Below are positions 252 to 8,898 of a stretch of DNA of 64,000 nt, in pieces. The DNA lies in the NCBI GenBank assembly GCA_016841605.1, contig JAENYV010000018.1, forward strand, positions 1 through 64,000. Direction: 5' to 3'. Every line of letters starts with the position of its first letter. The first letter of the stretch is position 1. The DNA is from Dethiobacter alkaliphilus (GTDB lineage Bacteria > Bacillota > Dethiobacteria > DTU022 > UBA8154). The notes under the pieces are model-generated. The model did no database searches. It saw nothing but the letters and a program-made list of their open reading frames with translations, and had not been told where the DNA came from. The translations under genes were made by a program, and so were the position numbers.

Positions 252-1697
252 TTAAAAATAAAGGTCACGTTCACCATTTTCAAGACGTTTTATTCTTTCT
301 CTTGTAATATTGCGTATTTTATCATTTTTTATTTGTGCCAAATGATGGTTAATGACATCCTCACCAACTTTACCGGTAAAGACAGAAGCATAATCCAGCA
401 AATATTCCTTAAAAGTAAGAAGAGCATTGGGCTGACAGACGTTCTGTATCTGTCCGTCCTTAGCCAGTGCCATAAAACGATCTCCTGTACGACCCTTACG
501 GTAACAGGCCGTGCAATAACTCGGCAAATAGCCGGAGTTGCATATACTGCAAAGGACTTCATCCACACTGCGATGATCATCCAGCCTAAATTGCTCCACT
601 TGATCCTGGCCAGGCGTACTTGCGTTGTTTTCTTCCTCCCTGTAGCCTCCCACTCCAGTGCAGCTTCCTGCCGAAATCTGGGAAATACCGTAATCCAATA
701 ATTTATCTCGAAGTTCCGGGCACTCACGCGTTGAAAGTATCATTCCGGTATAGGGCACCGCCAAACGGATAACTGAAACGATTTTTGCAAAGTTCTTATC
801 GTTGACAAGATACGGAAATTCCTCTAAATTCATTCCCTGGGCAGAACGCAGGCGAGGCACTGAAATTGTATGCGGACCGACGCCGAAACGTTCTTCAAGA
901 TGCTGGGCATGTTGAAGCAATGCCAGCACTTCAAACTTGTAATCATACAATCCGAAAAGTACTCCAAAGCCGACATCATCGATCCCGCCCCTCATCGCCC
1001 TGCCGTGAGCTGTCGCATGCCAGTCGTAGTCCGCTTTGGGACCGCTGGGGTGCATTTTTTTATACGTTTGCCGGTGATATGTCTCCTGAAACAGGATGTA
1101 AGTACCGATCTCAGCAGCCTTGAGACGCCGGTACTCTTCCACCGTTGTCGCCGCAATATTGACATTAATACGGCGGATACTACCATTATCGAATTTAAGG
1201 CCATAGATGGTGCGAATACATTCCAGCACGTAATCCAGCGGACACTCCGCGGCATGCTCCCCGGCTTCCAGTGCCAGGCGTTTATGCCCGAGATTTTCCA
1301 GAATTTTTACTTCTTCCGCCAATTCATCCTGTGCAAGCTTCCGCCGTTGAAAGGGATTATCTTTTTTGTAGCCGCAATAAAAGCAATTGTTGACACAATA
1401 ATTGCTGATATATAACGGAGCAAACAAGACGACTCTCTTACCATAAATATTTTGTTTCACCGTTTTGGCGGCTGCAAAAACCTCCCTCAGCAAATCATCG
1501 TCCGAAACCTCTAACAAAACTGCCGTTTCTTCCAAAGTAAGGCCCTTGGCCTCCCGGGCTTTGGCTACCAAGGAGAGGACTCTCTCCCGTGAGGCCCCTT
1601 TTGCCTTCTGCAAAAAATGTTTTATTTCATCTTCAAGGATAAAATCAGCGGGCTCCCATTCCGGGTGCCTTACCTGACCTGTTTTATTTTTATTCAC
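252..1697 (-). CDS. hydG: [FeFe] hydrogenase H-cluster radical SAM maturase HydG
   Basis: 481 aa ORF; radical SAM CxxxCxxC (CVNNCFYCGY) and C-terminal Cys motif (CSICNSGYLPSYCTACYRKGRTGDRFM) typical of HydG; adjacent to hydF. Confidence 0.95.
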   Translation of the reverse strand: MNKNKTGQVRHPEWEPADFILEDEIKHFLQKAKGASRERVLSLVAKAREAKGLTLEETAVLLEVSDDDLLREVFAAAKTVKQNIYGKRVVLFAPLYISNYCVNNCFYCGYKKDNPFQRRKLAQDELAEEVKILENLGHKRLALEAGEHAAECPLDYVLECIRTIYGLKFDNGSIRRINVNIAATTVEEYRRLKAAEIGTYILFQETYHRQTYKKMHPSGPKADYDWHATAHGRAMRGGIDDVGFGVLFGLYDYKFEVLALLQHAQHLEERFGVGPHTISVPRLRSAQGMNLEEFPYLVNDKNFAKIVSVIRLAVPYTGMILSTRECPELRDKLLDYGISQISAGSCTGVGGYREEENNASTPGQDQVEQFRLDDHRSVDEVLCSICNSGYLPSYCTACYRKGRTGDRFMALAKDGQIQNVCQPNALLTFKEYLLDYASVFTGKVGEDVINHHLAQIKNDKIRNITRERIKRLENGERDLYF

Positions 1698-2952
1698 TGT
1701 ACATCATCCACCTTTCTTCTTCCATATCTCCATATATATGTTGCCGAACATCTGGAAACGGGGAAAGAGCACGCGGCAAAATCCCCATCAAATGTGCAAT
1801 CGCCACGCCATAGTTGACAATGGGAACTCCCGCCTCTTTTACCCCGGCCAGACGGGCCAGCATCTCCCGTCTGTTAATCATGCAGCCGCCGCAATGGACC
1901 ACCAGTTTATATTCATGCAGGTGAGGAGGGAAAGTTGTGCCGCTGACCCAGTCGAAATGAAGCTCCCCGCCGACAGACTGACGCAGCCAACGGGGTATTT
2001 TTACCCGCCCTATATCATCTTCCACCCGGTGGTGGGTGCAGGCTTCCGCCATCAGGACTTTATCCCCGGGGAGCAGGTCATCAATAGCCTTGGCTCCTTC
2101 CGCCAGTAGTTCCAGATCACCCTTTTGACGGGCAAACAATATAGAGAAAGACGTTAAAAGAACATCTGGGGGCGTATATGCTTCTGCTTTTAAAAACGCC
2201 TGTGAATCCGTAATAACAATTTTCGGTTTTTCCTTTAATTGTGAGATCGTTGCCTTTAATTCCCGTTCTTTTGAGACCAGCGCAATGGCATCATGATCCA
2301 ATATATCCCGCAGTGTCTGGACTTGCGGCAAGATGAGCCGTCCTTTTGGTGCGGCCAGGTCGATGGGGATGACCAGTACCGCGATATCCCCGGGGCTGAG
2401 CAGATCTCCCACTAGAGGACGGTCATCCCATTTTTCCGGTGTTTTACGGATTATGGCCATCTTCAAATCACTCATTCCCATTCCATCCGCGGCGCAAACC
2501 GCTATTACGTCATCGAGATGCAGTTCATCGCGTAATAAAGCCAATGTCCCCTCGTCAGGCGGGTTTAGATCTGTTTTATTCAAGACACAGACAACAGGAA
2601 TTAATTTTTCCCGGCATTGACTCAAAATATCTCTCTCAAACGAAGAGATGCTTTTGCCGGCATCGAGGACTAAAAGGGCCAGATCAGTCTGATCGAGGAC
2701 AGAGCGCGAACGTTTAACCCGTAATTCTCCCAGATCACCCACATCGTCAAGACCCGCTGTATCAATCAGCACTACCGGCCCGACCGGTAAAATCTCCATT
2801 GTCTTAAAAACCGGATCCGTCGTAGTACCGGGGACAGACGAGACCAGAGCAATACTCTGGTTGGTCAGAGCATTAATCAGACTGGATTTGCCTGCGTTAC
2901 GCCGGCCGAATATGGCAATATGCAGGCGGTTTCCTCTTGGTGTTTTATTCAT
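1690..2952 (-). CDS. hydF: [FeFe] hydrogenase maturation GTPase HydF
   Basis: 420 aa; N-terminal G1 motif GRRNAGKSSLINAL, NKTD; C-terminal CTHHRVEDDIGRVKIPRWL and HCGGCMINRREM cluster-binding motifs. Confidence 0.95.
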   Translation of the reverse strand: MNKTPRGNRLHIAIFGRRNAGKSSLINALTNQSIALVSSVPGTTTDPVFKTMEILPVGPVVLIDTAGLDDVGDLGELRVKRSRSVLDQTDLALLVLDAGKSISSFERDILSQCREKLIPVVCVLNKTDLNPPDEGTLALLRDELHLDDVIAVCAADGMGMSDLKMAIIRKTPEKWDDRPLVGDLLSPGDIAVLVIPIDLAAPKGRLILPQVQTLRDILDHDAIALVSKERELKATISQLKEKPKIVITDSQAFLKAEAYTPPDVLLTSFSILFARQKGDLELLAEGAKAIDDLLPGDKVLMAEACTHHRVEDDIGRVKIPRWLRQSVGGELHFDWVSGTTFPPHLHEYKLVVHCGGCMINRREMLARLAGVKEAGVPIVNYGVAIAHLMGILPRALSPFPDVRQHIYGDMEEERWMMYSE

Positions 2953-2967
2953 AAACTTTCACCTCAT

Positions 2968-4365
2968 TCATTCTCCCGTATAGCCGGTTTTTGTTGCTTT
3001 CTCCATGGTTAACAGCTTTTCCAGCTCTTCCTCGGTCAAAATACCCGCTTCCAGGATAATATCCCGGGCAGAGCGTTCCGTTAGAAGAGTTTGACGAGCC
3101 AGCTCTGAGGCGCGTTCATATCCGATACGGGTTGCAAGCAAAGTAAAGATACCGGTGCTGTTTTGCAAGTATTCCCGGCATTTCTCCGCATTGGCCCGGA
3201 TACCCCGAATACATTTTTCGACTAGAAGACGTATGGCTTTGGCCAGAGTCTCCATAGCCGGCAAAAGGTTTGCCGCCACAAGAGGCAGGAAGGCGTTGAG
3301 TTCCAATTGACCTGCCTGTGCGGCCATGCTCACAGCCAGGTCCTGGGCCATAACCTGATAGGCAACCTGTGTTACCATCTCCGGAAGAACAGGATTAATT
3401 TTGCCCGGCATGATGCTCGAACCTGCCTGCAATTGAGGCAGCGTAATCTCTCCAAACCCTGCCCTGGGGCCGGAAGATAACAAAATGAGGTCGCCGGATA
3501 TTTTTAATAAGGTAACAGCAGCCGCTTTGACAAGCCCCGATACTTCCACAAAAACATCGGCGTTTTGCGTCCCGTCGATGAGGTTTTCATTTCGGGCCAG
3601 GCCTATGCCGGTTAAGACCCGCAATTGTTCCACAACACGATAAATAAAACGTTTATCCGCGCCCAGACCGGTCCCCACAGCCGTTCCTCCCAGGTTGATT
3701 TGCCGCAGCCGCTCTTCCACTTTATACAGACGCCAGCGGTCGCGCGCTACCGCTTCGGCGTAAGCAGCGAACTCCTGACCTAGTGTTATCGGTATTGCCT
3801 CCTGCAGTTGCGTGCGCCCAACTTTTACAATACCGGCAAACTCTGCTTCTTTTTCCTGCAACGCACCTTGCAAGACAGCACAGGCTTCGGACAGGGGCAA
3901 CAAAAGACGAATAGCGGCAACCCGCAGGGCCGTCGGGTAAACATCATTGGTGGACTGACTGAGGTTAACATGCTCCAGCGGATGAACAAGGCCGTAATCC
4001 CCGGGCCAGCCTCCCAGCAGTTCAATGGCCCGGTTGGCGAGAACTTCGTTCATATTCATATTTGTAGACGTCCCTGCACCGCCCTGAAATGCGCCTACAA
4101 TAAACTGATCATGATAATATCCGTTCGCAACCTCCATAGCCGCCCGGCAGACAGCATCGCCCACATCTTGCGGCAAGCGCCCTATCTGCATATTCGTCCG
4201 CGCTGCCGCCTGTTTGACCAAAGCCAGGGCCACAATCAGTTCTTTATGAATGGGGATGTTGGAAACATGAAAATTTTCTGCTGCCCGCGCAGCATGAATA
4301 CCATAGTAAGCATCAACAGGTATAGCCATTTCACCAAGCAAGTCATGTTCTTTACGGTGCTTCAT
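2968..4365 (-). CDS. aspA: aspartate ammonia-lyase
   Basis: 465 aa; fumarase/aspartase signature GSSIMPGKINPVLPE; located between hydE and hydF. Confidence 0.9.
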   Translation of the reverse strand: MKHRKEHDLLGEMAIPVDAYYGIHAARAAENFHVSNIPIHKELIVALALVKQAAARTNMQIGRLPQDVGDAVCRAAMEVANGYYHDQFIVGAFQGGAGTSTNMNMNEVLANRAIELLGGWPGDYGLVHPLEHVNLSQSTNDVYPTALRVAAIRLLLPLSEACAVLQGALQEKEAEFAGIVKVGRTQLQEAIPITLGQEFAAYAEAVARDRWRLYKVEERLRQINLGGTAVGTGLGADKRFIYRVVEQLRVLTGIGLARNENLIDGTQNADVFVEVSGLVKAAAVTLLKISGDLILLSSGPRAGFGEITLPQLQAGSSIMPGKINPVLPEMVTQVAYQVMAQDLAVSMAAQAGQLELNAFLPLVAANLLPAMETLAKAIRLLVEKCIRGIRANAEKCREYLQNSTGIFTLLATRIGYERASELARQTLLTERSARDIILEAGILTEEELEKLLTMEKATKTGYTGE

Positions 4366-4377
4366 CTTTGCTCCTCC

Positions 4378-5466
4378 TTAACCCTCCATCTTAACCCGCA
4401 CCACCCGCATCCGGCCAAAGGGGGGCTTGGGACTATGCCCCGGGCCCTCGGCGACAGTTCTCCCCAGGGAAGCAATAACTTTGCCCATGCAGCGACGGCC
4501 GTAATCCGGGTTGTCGTCCTGGCAGGTTGTACTATGGGGATAAATTTCATACAGGTTTCTGTAACGTTGCGGGGTAATAACGGGCATCACCACATTCCCG
4601 CCGGCCTGCAGGGCTTTGCGGTGCGCCGAAGGATCGATTGTACCCAAAGCGGTCGTTGCGGGCAGATGCGCTTGCGGCAGCAGCAGGCGTGCTAAGGCAA
4701 GCATTTTTAAGGTCATTTCTACCGTCCCGGCAGGAGCCGAACCCAGCGGCGTGCGGGGATGGGGGATAAAGGGTCCAATCCCCGCCATTTCAACGTCCAA
4801 CTCTTTTAGCAATAACAGATCATCAGCCAAAGCCTCGAGCGTTTGTCCGGGCAAACCGACCATACACCCTGAACCCACCTGAAAATCCGCTTCCCGCAAG
4901 CGGTAAAGGCAACGGCGCCGATTATCAAAGGTCATATCCGGGTGAAGCTGCTTGTATAAGGCAGGGTCGGCCGTTTCATGCTTCAGAAGATAACGGTCGG
5001 CCCCGGCTTTTCGCCAAAGGCGATATTCTTCCGCAGATCTTTCTCCACAACTGAGAGTGACCGCCAGTCCCGGCAGCGCTTTTAACCGTTTAACAATAAA
5101 GGCAATTTTGTCCGCCTCATAAAAACTGTCTTCCCCGGACTGCAAAACTACCGTCCTGTAGCCGAGGGCAACCGACTCCGACGCGGTTGAAATAATTTCA
5201 TCTTCCTCAATGCGATAGCGTTTAAGTTGACGATTGGCGGCACGCAATCCACAGTAACGGCAATTACGTTCACAATAGTTTGAAAACTCAATGATACCCC
5301 GCAGGTGAACGGCATTACCCATGAATTGTTTACGGACACGATCAGCCGCGGTTAATAGCTCCCTTTTGTCTGAAAACCCATCCGACAAAAGGAAAATAAT
5401 TTCTTCTTTAGACAATTTGTTTTCCAGCATGACACTGTGTAATATCTGTTTAATATCGCGTTTCAA
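4378..5466 (-). CDS. hydE: [FeFe] hydrogenase H-cluster radical SAM maturase HydE
   Basis: ORF track gives 4378..5550, but codons upstream of about 5466 lie in or next to an intrinsic terminator; TTG at 5466 (LKRDIKQIL) is a plausible start. CxxxCxxC motif CERNCRYCGLR. Confidence 0.88.
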   Translation of the reverse strand: MKRDIKQILHSVMLENKLSKEEIIFLLSDGFSDKRELLTAADRVRKQFMGNAVHLRGIIEFSNYCERNCRYCGLRAANRQLKRYRIEEDEIISTASESVALGYRTVVLQSGEDSFYEADKIAFIVKRLKALPGLAVTLSCGERSAEEYRLWRKAGADRYLLKHETADPALYKQLHPDMTFDNRRRCLYRLREADFQVGSGCMVGLPGQTLEALADDLLLLKELDVEMAGIGPFIPHPRTPLGSAPAGTVEMTLKMLALARLLLPQAHLPATTALGTIDPSAHRKALQAGGNVVMPVITPQRYRNLYEIYPHSTTCQDDNPDYGRRCMGKVIASLGRTVAEGPGHSPKPPFGRMRVVRVKMEG

Positions 5467-5526
5467 ATCATCGCCCCGTTTTTCTATCGTGCTTTCTCCG
5501 CTTTCCCAATGCCTAAAAAAATAAAA

Positions 5527-5564
5527 AACTGCCTCAACGTGCAATAACACGCCAAAAGGCAGTT
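5527..5564 (-). terminator. intrinsic terminator/attenuator in hydE leader
   Basis: minus strand AACTGCC...CGTG TTATTG CACG...GGCAGTT followed by TTTTATTTTTTT, upstream of hydE. Confidence 0.8.
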
Positions 5565-5566
5565 TA

Positions 5567-5694
5567 CCAACTAGTCATTATGATAATCATCCCCTTCCCA
5601 TCAGGTAACCCCTTTGGCACAGGATTAATTAATTATGATCCTTGGATACGGCTAACAAGCCCTATCCGCAGATTGTAAGGCACTTCTGTTTATA
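5567..5694 (-). promoter_or_regulatory. structured 5' leader of hydE operon (candidate cis-regulatory RNA)
   Basis: hairpins GGATAGGGCTTGTTAGCCGTATCC and AGGAT..ATCCT; segment GCCAAAGGGGTTACC can pair with GGTAAACTGCCTTTTGGC, sequestering the left arm of the terminator. Confidence 0.55.
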
Positions 5695-5723
5695 ATTATA
5701 CCGGGGGAAAGAACATCTGTCAA
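5695..5723 (-). promoter_or_regulatory. sigma-A type promoter for hydE operon
   Basis: TTGACA (5718-5723) - 17 nt - TATAAT (5695-5700) on minus strand. Confidence 0.75.
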
Positions 5724-5855
5724 ATATACAACAAAAAAGCAGTAGGGAAGCAAAGGGATAGAAGAGCCGCAGGACTTACAGGCAGGAAAACCGGAGCACC
5801 GATCCGGCGCTTCACCTGAGCTCCCCGACCTCTTTTCGCTGTTCTGTAGTGCTAA

Positions 5856-6119
5856 TTACCTGGCGATCTTATCCATAATGGCCATAAGTTCTTCTATTTT
5901 CTCATCTTCATTTCCCGACTGAAAGGCCTCCCGCACACAATTTTTCATATGTGCATGAATGATTTCCTTATTAGTTTTTCGAAGGATAGATTCCGTCGCC
6001 AAAAGCTGGTTGGATATATCGATACAGTAGCGGTCATCCTCAACCATTTTCAAAATACCCTCTATTTGACCTTTGGCCGTTTTTAGAAGAGATGTTATCT
6101 TTTGTTTATCAGCTCTCAT
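5856..6119 (-). CDS. csoR: CsoR-family copper-sensing repressor
   Basis: 87 aa DUF156 protein with C..H..C ligand pattern (DRYC, HAHMKNC), next to copA. Confidence 0.88.
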   Translation of the reverse strand: MRADKQKITSLLKTAKGQIEGILKMVEDDRYCIDISNQLLATESILRKTNKEIIHAHMKNCVREAFQSGNEDEKIEELMAIMDKIAR

Positions 6120-6145
6120 AATGCCTCCTCTCCCGTGCCCGGCTG

Positions 6146-8713
6146 TTACCTAAGATCAACAACCGTATAGCCGGCATCAATTACCGCATTTTTCAGCAAC
6201 TCATCGCCAACTTCCTCGGATAATGTGATTATTGCCTTCTTTTGCTCAAGATCCACCACGGCATCTACACCTTCCAGAGCATTAAGGGCCTTTTCAACTC
6301 TACCGGAACAATGGGCGCAACTCATACCTTCAATAATCATTGTCTTTGTCAAAATATTATCCTCTCTTTCATTATCATTTATCATAGGGGTGCTGTTTAA
6401 AACACCGTCTAAACGAGTATCAGAGCCACCCGCATAGGTGCGGCGGGGTTTAAAGAGCTTTAATCTAAGTGCATTGGAGACGACACATACCGAGCTTAAG
6501 CTCATAGCCGCCGCCGCAAACATGGGGCTGAGCTTCCAGCCAAGGAGGGTATAGAATACACCGGCTGCCAATGGTATGCCTAAACTGTTATAGAATAATG
6601 CCCAGAACAGGTTTTGCCTGATATTTCGGACTACAGACTTGCTGAGCTGGATCGCGGCAACCGCATCAAAAAGATCGCTCTTTACCAGGACGATATCAGC
6701 GGATTCTATAGCCACATCTGTTCCTGCCCCAATGGCAATACCCACATCAGCCCTGACCAGGGCAGGCGCATCATTAATCCCATCGCCGATCATGGCAACT
6801 TTTTTGGCGATGCTCCTGATATTGCGTATTTCCCGTTCCTTATCCTGTGGCAAAACCTCGGATATGGCCCGCTTAATACCAAGCTCCTTTCCGATTGCTT
6901 CGGCTGTTTTACGATTATCGCCCGTCAGCATAACAACGTCAATCCCCATTGCCTCAAACTCTTTTATTGCCGCTTTACTGGTAGGCTTAACAACGTCCGC
7001 CACGGCAATAATACCCAGGACCTTTTCCTCGTCGGCAAAATAGAGGGGGGTTTTACCTTCCTCCGCCAATTTACTACCCGGACTGTCGAAATCATTGGCA
7101 TTAACATTTTTATCGAAAAGAATCTGTAAGTTCCCGGCAAAAATACGTTTTTTCTCAACCGCAGCTTCAACCCCCCGCCCGGGGACAGCCAAAAAGCTTT
7201 CCACGGGCAGGAGATCTATATTTCGTTGTTTTGCTTCTTCTATAATTGCCTCTGCCACGGGATGCTCAGAAGACTTCTCTATTGATGCCGCTATTTGCAG
7301 GAGCTCCATCTCCGTGATCTCATTATTTGTAATAATATCGGTAACCTTCGGCTTTCCTTCGGTAATCGTCCCTGTTTTATCCAAAACAACCGTATCTATT
7401 TTATGGGCAATTTCCAATGATTCGGCCGATTTTATCAATATTCCGTTTTCCGCGCCTTTTCCGATACCGACCATAATAGCTGTTGGTGTCGCCAGCCCCA
7501 AAGCACATGGGCAGGATATGACCAGTACCGATATCCCGATAGAAAAGGCAAATTCAAAGGGATAACCGAGGAGCAGCCAGACCGTTGAGGCAAAAAGCGC
7601 GATAGCAATGACAACCGGCACAAACACGCTGCTGATTTTGTCCGCCAGTCTGGCGATCGGCGCCCTGGAGGAGCTTGCTTCATCAACCAGTTGTATAATC
7701 CGGGCAAGCGTGGTATCATCGCCGACCTTGACGGCTCTGAATTTAAAGTATCCTGATTTATTAATACTGGCGCCGATGACCTGGTCTCCCTTTTTCTTTT
7801 CTACCGGGATGCTTTCCCCGGTCAAGGCAGACTCATCCACAGAGGAATTGCCCTCTACGATAATACCGTCAACGGGTATGCTCTGTCCGGGCTTGACAAC
7901 AAGAATATCTCCCTTGACAACATCTTCTACATCAATTTCAATTTCTTCGTTGTCTCTCACAACCAGAGCCGTTTTGGGCGCCAGTTTAACAAGCTTGTTG
8001 ATAGCTTCAGAGGTCCTCCCTTTGGCCCTCGTCTCAAAATATTTTCCCAGGGTGATTAAGGTAAGGATCATGGCCGCGGATTCAAAATACAAATTACCGG
8101 AGTACCCTTGAACCAGGGCCATATCCAGATGCCCCAGGCCGTAGCCAATCTTGTAGATGGCATAGATACCGTAAATCAACGCGGCAGCAGAACCGATTGC
8201 AATGAGGGAATCCATATTGGGCGAACCCTTCAGCAGGGTTTTAAAGCCCACCGTATAATATTTGCTGTTTACAAAGGCCACAGGCAAAACCAGAAGTAAC
8301 TGGGTAAAGGCAAAAGTCAAAGCATTTTCATATCCCTTAAAAAAGCCGGGCAAGGGCAATCCGAACATATGCCCCATGGATATATATAAAAGGGGGATAG
8401 TGAAAACAAAGGAAATAATGAGACGGCATTTCATCTGTGCAATCTCATTTGCCGTATCATCTGCCGGCTTTGAATTCTGGGCGGCAGCTTCCCTTTTGCC
8501 TGTCTGCACGAAAGCGTTATAACCGGCATTCTGCACCGCTTTGATGATTGCTTCCTCATCCAAACCGTCTTCATCATATTGGACGGTCATACTGTTGCTT
8601 AAAAGATTGACATTTACATTGGCGATGCCGTTTAATTTTGCCACGCTCTTTTCAACATGCGCTGAGCATGCGGAACAATTCATACCCGTTACATCAAACT
8701 TTTTCTTAATCAT
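6146..8713 (-). CDS. copA: copper-translocating P1B-type ATPase with N- and C-terminal HMA domains
   Basis: CPC motif ([11 protein letters not shown]), [22 protein letters not shown]-terminal [10 protein letters not shown] and C-terminal [15 protein letters not shown]. Start placed at MIKKKFDV; track start 8890 translates repeat DNA. Confidence 0.93.
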
Positions 8714-8728
8714 GGCCGGACCTCCACT

Positions 8729-8749
8729 CCACCCCCCCCCTGGGGGGTG
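8729..8749. promoter_or_regulatory. candidate CsoR operator upstream of copA
   Basis: GC-rich pseudo-palindrome CACCCCCCCCCTGGGGGGTG immediately upstream of the copA RBS. Confidence 0.6.
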
Positions 8750-8814
8750 ACTTATTGGCTCTATGCTATACCGCATCTTAGTTTTTGTCAAGCCGTTTTT
8801 GCTAATACGCGGAA

Positions 8815-8885
8815 AAAATTTCGGGACACATGGAAAAAATTTCGGGACACATTGAAAAAATTTCGGGACACATTGAAAATTATTC
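8815..8885. repeat. tandem repeats of AATTTCGGGACACATTGAAAAA
   Basis: three successive near-identical copies of TTTCGGGACACAT(T)G(A)AAAAA. Confidence 0.85.
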
Positions 8886-8898
8886 AGCAATCAAAAAA

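Follow-up and report, generated by a model that had tools for sequence, protein, structure and literature searches.

The window, by which we mean the whole 64,000-nucleotide stretch that was analyzed, carries the operon hydE-aspA-hydF-hydG on its minus strand, with genes assigned by NCBIfam models as follows:

4378–5466, minus strand: hydE, the first gene of the operon (TIGR03956)
2968–4365, minus strand: aspartate ammonia-lyase gene, aspA-like (NF008909)
1690–2952, minus strand: hydF (TIGR03918)
252–1697, minus strand: hydG (TIGR03955)

The start codon of hydE is likely the TTG at 5466. Further upstream on the same strand (5856–8890, minus) lie a gene for a CsoR/RicR-like metal-sensing repressor and a copper-type P-type ATPase ORF that has CopZ-like stretches at each end.

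The leader that precedes hydE contains, on the minus strand, the consensus promoter, the two hairpins (approximately 5676–5638 and 5623–5591) and the intrinsic terminator (stem 5565–5526, followed by a T run) that an earlier note had described from the sequence. The promoter matches the consensus at 12 of 12 positions with a 17-nt spacer, and transcription would start near 5688. The features of the leader, in the direction of transcription, are:

5695–5723, minus strand: sigma-70 type promoter, −35 TTGACA (5723–5718) and −10 TATAAT (5700–5695)
5638–5676, minus strand: module 1 (the 5′ module), AATCUG - hairpin GGATA...TATCC - AAGGAT, matched by covariance models R1 and R2, with covariation in alignments A5 and A6
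5591–5623, minus strand: module 2 (the core module), CCUGUG-CCA-A-AGG-GGUUA-CCU-GA-UGG-GA-AGGGG, matched by covariance model R3, with middle-stem covariation in 50 sequences
5604–5618, minus strand: candidate antiterminator 5′ strand, GCCAAAGGGGTTACC, inside module 2 (from sequence, duplex energy and a 71-locus test)
5591–5596, minus strand: AAGGGG, the 3′ strand of module 2, Shine-Dalgarno-like (near-invariant in alignment A10, with downstream ATG enriched)
5564–5590, minus strand: putative tiny leader ORF, ATG ATT ATC ATA ATG ACT AGT TGG TAA (from sequence)
5551–5568, minus strand: candidate antiterminator 3′ strand, GGTAAACTGCCTTTTGGC, which includes the left arm of the terminator (from sequence, duplex energy and the 71-locus test)
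5523–5565, minus strand: intrinsic terminator, AAACTGCC...GGCAGTTT and T run, −21.5 kcal/mol (from sequence and folding energy)

The predicted product of the tiny ORF is MIIIMTSW, or MTSW if the second ATG (5578) is used, and the ORF ends in a stop codon that overlaps with the base of the terminator stem. R1 and R2 match the window leader at 5588–5676 and R3 matches it at 5587–5626 with 48.8 bits. Each of 200 dinucleotide shuffles folded less well than the complete leader (z = −4.53). As judged by sequence comparison, the window leader is far beyond chance, since many genera have homologous leaders in which compensatory changes are seen.

Relatives were gathered by a HydE scan of species genomes, and similar leaders were gathered by blastn of the window leader. 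Comparative covariance in the leaders of relatives had been put forward as a check on the structure, and compensatory base changes were found in many genera. In A5, a hand-structured alignment of six leaders, both hairpins show such changes (13 double-change cells vs. 4.9 in shuffled alignments and no more than 2 when the pairing was slid), and the helix of module 1 covaries in both A5 and A6. Comparison of diverse members showed that the two hairpins are versions of one module, CCU-GA-stem-R-AGG-loop-YCU-GA-stem′-A-AGG, with the consensus CCUGA-NNN-R-AGG-loop-YCU-GA-N′N′N′-A-AGGGG, which occurs singly or, often, in tandem. The module is pseudo-symmetric around its middle stem, with two symmetry-related internal loops, and these purine-rich loops and the flanking blocks CCUGA and AAGG are near-invariant across members. 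Module 1 of the window is a plainer hairpin; in many species (e.g., L091, L095–L097, L113, and L132) module 1 conforms to the consensus as closely as module 2 does, and some leaders (L100, L116, L117, and L126) have module 2 without module 1.

The middle stem pairs in 130 of 150 cells (shuffles: mean 72, maximum 92), and in A10, an alignment of 50 module-2 sequences, there are 55 double-change cells vs. 17.3 (sd 3.6) in shuffled alignments and at most 22 with the pairing slid; these counts are strong but come from related rows and are not corrected for phylogeny, and they were obtained from padded alignments in which the stems were picked by a parsing script that rewards and maximizes pairing and therefore favors structure. 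Both the inner AGG/CCU and the outer CCU/AGG stems are almost invariant in A10, and because of this near-invariance the outer stem has no covariation support. The inner stem is backed, as judged by eye, by the pairing of AGA with UCU in L199 and L227, which are variants outside the model. A further helix, P3, which models R1 and R2 included as an AGGA/UCCU pairing between the modules, was kept in only 75–78% of cells and was given up in favor of the two-module view.

The leader had originally been described as a structured leader of hydE. That it is a structured leader of hydrogenase maturation genes stands, but the scope was too narrow, as the element is far broader than hydE leaders. Model R1, built from six leaders, recovered leaders outside its training set (L033 and L035, 21 bits) and, in a class-wide search, also those of G072–G074 and G076, all of which lie before TM1266 and/or hydE. 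Model R2, built from 14 sequences and run on 399 genomes of the phylum, had matches in 52 of them, nearly all of the inspected ones preceding hyd-regulon genes. R3, a model of module 2 alone, had matches in 105 of the 399 genomes at E ≤ 0.05 and in 74 at E ≤ 0.0025, and in at least 74 genomes the element precedes TM1266, hydE, hydG, hydF, aspA, an ECF S component or an NMT1-type ABC transporter. After obvious false matches within coding sequence had been removed, 104 R2 and R3 loci were kept, of which 103 precede hyd-regulon genes and the remaining one ends at a contig edge. The first downstream gene is most often TM1266 (56 loci), followed by hydG (23), hydE (14), an ECF S component (6), an NMT1-like substrate-binding protein (2), aspA (1), and hydF (1); the ECF_trnsprt, NMT1-like and TM1266-like assignments are backed by Pfam. 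The matches rejected as coding sequence were L114 (ABC transporter), L122 (collagen-like repeat), the second match in L130, and L179–L181.

R3 also matches before TM1266 in six deltaproteobacterial loci, ahead of TM1266-hyd operons, and because in four of these genomes this place is the sole R3 match of the genome at E ≤ 0.05, we place the element in a second phylum. Among 40 regions upstream of TM1266 from genomes with no R3 match, 15 match R3 weakly (E ≤ 0.33) and several others resemble variants by eye, findings that are only suggestive of further copies of the element. Separately, in the L055 leader upstream of 4001, which lies before hydE and has a hairpin and a terminator, the segment CTGATGGCAAAGTTACTCTGAGCCGCAAGA has the look of a divergent module and received no score from the models.

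TM1266 (TIGR03959), a small putative regulator of [FeFe] hydrogenase systems that has no DNA-binding domain and belongs to the NikR C-terminal or ACT-like fold family (PDB 2nzc), is present in 209 of the 399 genomes. All 74 genomes with an R3 match at E ≤ 0.0025 encode it (hypergeometric 9e-25, phylogeny not corrected for), as would be expected of a leader autoregulated by this protein, in which the RNA should never occur without TM1266. The reverse does not hold: TM1266 occurs without a detected element, whereas the element without TM1266 was not found at a confident score in the 399 genomes. Three R3 matches at E ≤ 0.01 in TM1266-negative genomes (L179–L181) have no hyd-regulon gene downstream; the L180 match runs into an ABC-type coding sequence, and those of L179 and L181 look coding. 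HydG was found in 17 of 80 sampled TM1266-negative genomes and none of the 17 had an R3 match at E ≤ 0.0025, an outcome with a chance of ~6e-4 at the 35% rate of TM1266-positive genomes if the genomes were independent, which they are not. The co-occurrence of TM1266 and the element could reflect shared membership of a regulon. In the genome from which the window comes, the only TM1266 gene is on another contig (C11:203920), separate from the hydE operon. There (L229) TM1266 is followed by genes of an NMT1-type ABC transporter, for the substrate-binding protein and a permease, and the leader before it has related CCUGA/AAGG blocks and a terminator and falls below threshold in the models.

With regard to the output of the element, deduplication at 70% identity left 81 loci, and in 71 of these a terminator lies within 130 nt 3′ of the module. 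A Shine-Dalgarno-like sequence (AGGGG, AGGAGG, or AGGGGAGG) forms the 3′ strand of module 2. In those of the 81 loci where the module is not directly before a gene, an ATG follows 8–16 nt past the AGG in 42 cases, where positions further downstream would predict 6.75 (Poisson 7e-20), and the strand likely serves as Shine-Dalgarno sequence either for a tiny leader ORF or for the structural gene itself. The putative leader ORFs are short, and many stop at the foot of the terminator (MTSW in the window, and L093, L098, L102, L104, L097, and L113), while others extend into it; in about 24 of the 71 loci of the terminator type, the expected place holds no ATG, GTG or TTG. In cases where there is no leader ORF and the module lies directly before a gene, over its ribosome-binding site (hydG in L100, L101, and L143; ECF in L117, L120, and L134), the module stands as far from the true start codon as it does from the leader ATG elsewhere. 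The simplest reading of these arrangements would be that the module governs ribosome loading at the start-codon site.

The terminator was also proposed in the earlier note to be mutually exclusive with an antiterminator. Both segments of the latter are present in the window, with a duplex energy of −15.8 kcal/mol, but the comparative support is modest and is clear in a subset of loci only. Across 71 deduplicated loci the complementarity within a locus exceeded that between loci (mean residual −1.39 kcal/mol, permutation p < 0.0005); seven of eight controls were not significant, and the remaining one, the reversed arm, gave p = 0.018. The signal was strongest in L087–L089, L131, L148, and L104, and a smaller test of 14 loci showed no own-locus excess. 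In the window, module 2 and the terminator together (−14.2 and −21.5 kcal/mol) are more stable than the antiterminator, and the minimum free energy folds of truncated transcripts always keep module 2 folded and in none contain the antiterminator. We consider that the pairing may be a contributing, though not a universal, part of the element, a modestly supported reading.

Considered apart from its effector, the element very probably serves the H-cluster maturation regulon as a conserved, structured control RNA, either an attenuator or a translational operator, a view that rests on comparative sequence evidence. The regulon comprises TM1266, hydE, hydF, hydG and aspA, with an ECF or NMT1-type ABC importer in some species. 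In the mechanism that we propose, the outer CCU strand of a folded module 2 would hold the AAGGGG Shine-Dalgarno sequence and the 5′ strand of the module would not be free, so that the leader ORF would receive no ribosome, the terminator would form and the operon would be off. In an open module 2 the 5′ strand could base-pair with the terminator's left arm, and the 3′ strand could load a ribosome on a leader ORF that reaches into or up to the terminator; either ribosome loading or antiterminator pairing would block the terminator and turn the operon on. It is feasible that the folded state is stabilized by TM1266, perhaps carrying a ligand of its own, and this is the least certain step.

We tentatively favor TM1266 as an RNA-binding autoregulator, based on its strict co-occurrence with the element, its place directly behind the leader and its lack of a DNA-binding domain, over a metabolite riboswitch, which we hold to be almost as likely in view of the importer genes and the near-invariant internal loops; these gradings are a matter of judgement and were not computed. 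In a metabolite riboswitch, modules 1 and 2 would be tandem aptamers for an H-cluster-related small molecule and TM1266 would merely be a member of the regulon. The element has two of the features by which a riboswitch is recognized, namely a conserved RNA secondary structure with compensatory changes and a place in the 5′ leader of a coherent gene set together with an expression platform. The purine-rich loops, the CCUGA/AAGG flanks and the tandem layout would suit aptamers, and the union of biosynthesis genes with ECF and NMT1-type importers in one regulon is typical of metabolite riboswitches. However, no confident match was found in those of the 399 genomes that lack TM1266, including the sampled ones with HydG, the small pseudo-symmetric module would suit a protein dimer or tetramer equally well, and the gene contexts suggest no ligand. 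Returning to TM1266, its recognition of a pseudo-two-fold-symmetric RNA module, so coupling translation of a minimal leader ORF to termination in the maturation regulon in at least two phyla, is a more specific proposition that we regard as possible and put forward with greater reserve than either of these effectors.

Start codons enriched past the module, and leader ORFs whose stop codon lies at or within the terminator, such as MTSW in the window, could also be accounted for by plain attenuation, in which ribosome occupancy of the tiny ORF alone sets termination without an aptamer or an RNA-binding protein. We believe this to be improbable, as the leader ORFs have no common peptide sequence or codon run of the kind expected in a leader-peptide attenuator, and a covarying module would not be needed, yet it is kept directly before hydG and ECF genes, where a leader ORF is missing altogether. 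An ordinary 5′ UTR that contains a terminator, with likeness due to descent or low complexity alone, might be suspected from the fact that G-rich leaders with a terminator fold well anyway, and when the window leader was cut inside the terminator, leaving that hairpin unable to form, z was only −1.95. The compensatory changes across genera, the match in another phylum and the location of nearly all confident matches at hyd-regulon genes speak against such a UTR and leave it, in our view, barely credible.

The earlier note could assign the leader to no riboswitch class that it considered, and an Rfam search of positions 5440–5760 also gave no match at E ≤ 10. There was likewise no Rfam match at the gathering threshold in the window or in eight relatives, and a set of 11 diverse members had nothing at E ≤ 0.5. 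In the literature searched (subscription papers, supplements and preprints were outside its scope), no paper was found that connects hydE, hydG, the hydrogenase maturases or TM1266 with a riboswitch or a leader RNA, and the word "hydrogenase" is absent from the main text of a 2024 list of candidates from 50 genomes. We regard the element, which the Rfam and literature collections searched lack, as a new class within a known kind of RNA, and its output arrangement as unusual.

Several known systems bear comparison with the element. Like riboswitches with a terminator platform, it is a structured 5′ leader RNA that is followed by a terminator or lies over a ribosome-binding site, and its regulon consists of cofactor biosynthesis genes and importers; TPP riboswitches also control thiH and NMT1-type and ECF importers. 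It differs from these riboswitches in having no Rfam riboswitch similarity and in co-occurring strictly with one protein family. With protein-bound leaders (ribosomal protein leaders, PyrR, HutP, and TRAP) it shares a terminator or Shine-Dalgarno output, tandem hairpins and, frequently, a position directly before the gene for a putative small regulator, here TM1266, which comes first in 56 of 104 loci. It differs from them in that RNA binding by TM1266 is putative, and its NikR C-terminal/ACT-like fold family is not known to us to include RNA binders. The Moco/Tuco RNA motif (RF01055) has a tungsten variant that occurs upstream of ferredoxin hydrogenase genes (PMC9481103). The element resembles this motif in its position before hydrogenase-related genes and is unlike it in structure and in the genes that follow, and the leader has no match to it at E ≤ 10. 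Guanidine-II (mini-ykkC) RNAs likewise have two similar small tandem hairpins beside a ribosome-binding site or terminator; their sequence and loops differ from those of the element, which has no Rfam match to them and has its conserved letters in the internal loops and flanks instead of the terminal loops.

Assembly of the H-cluster is costly chemistry with toxic intermediates (CO and cyanide), and to our knowledge little is known of how cells regulate it. An element that stands before essentially the whole maturation regulon in many anaerobic bacteria provides a handle on the signal, ties two importers of unassigned substrate to the H-cluster pathway, and offers a candidate function for TM1266, an annotated regulator without a DNA-binding domain. 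If the effector is a metabolite, the riboswitch would be new, and if it is TM1266, this protein would represent a new family of RNA-binding proteins.

An ECF-type S component is under the element, either directly or behind TM1266, in L117, L120, L123, L134, L141, L092, L152, and L164, and the substrate of this component may be a pointer to the signal. The aspartate ammonia-lyase gene that sits within the hydE-hydF-hydG operon of the window (2968–4365, minus strand) has counterparts behind the element elsewhere, with hydF, hydG or TM1266 (L128, L131, L170, and L184), and the enzyme may be a source of ammonium for the H-cluster. Copies of the module were also seen just 3′ of TM1266 in L157 (G329), L137 (G156), L151 (G281), and L183 (G257), and in G329 the module is on both sides of TM1266, upstream and downstream. 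The placement of modules downstream of TM1266 suggests a second control point within the operon.
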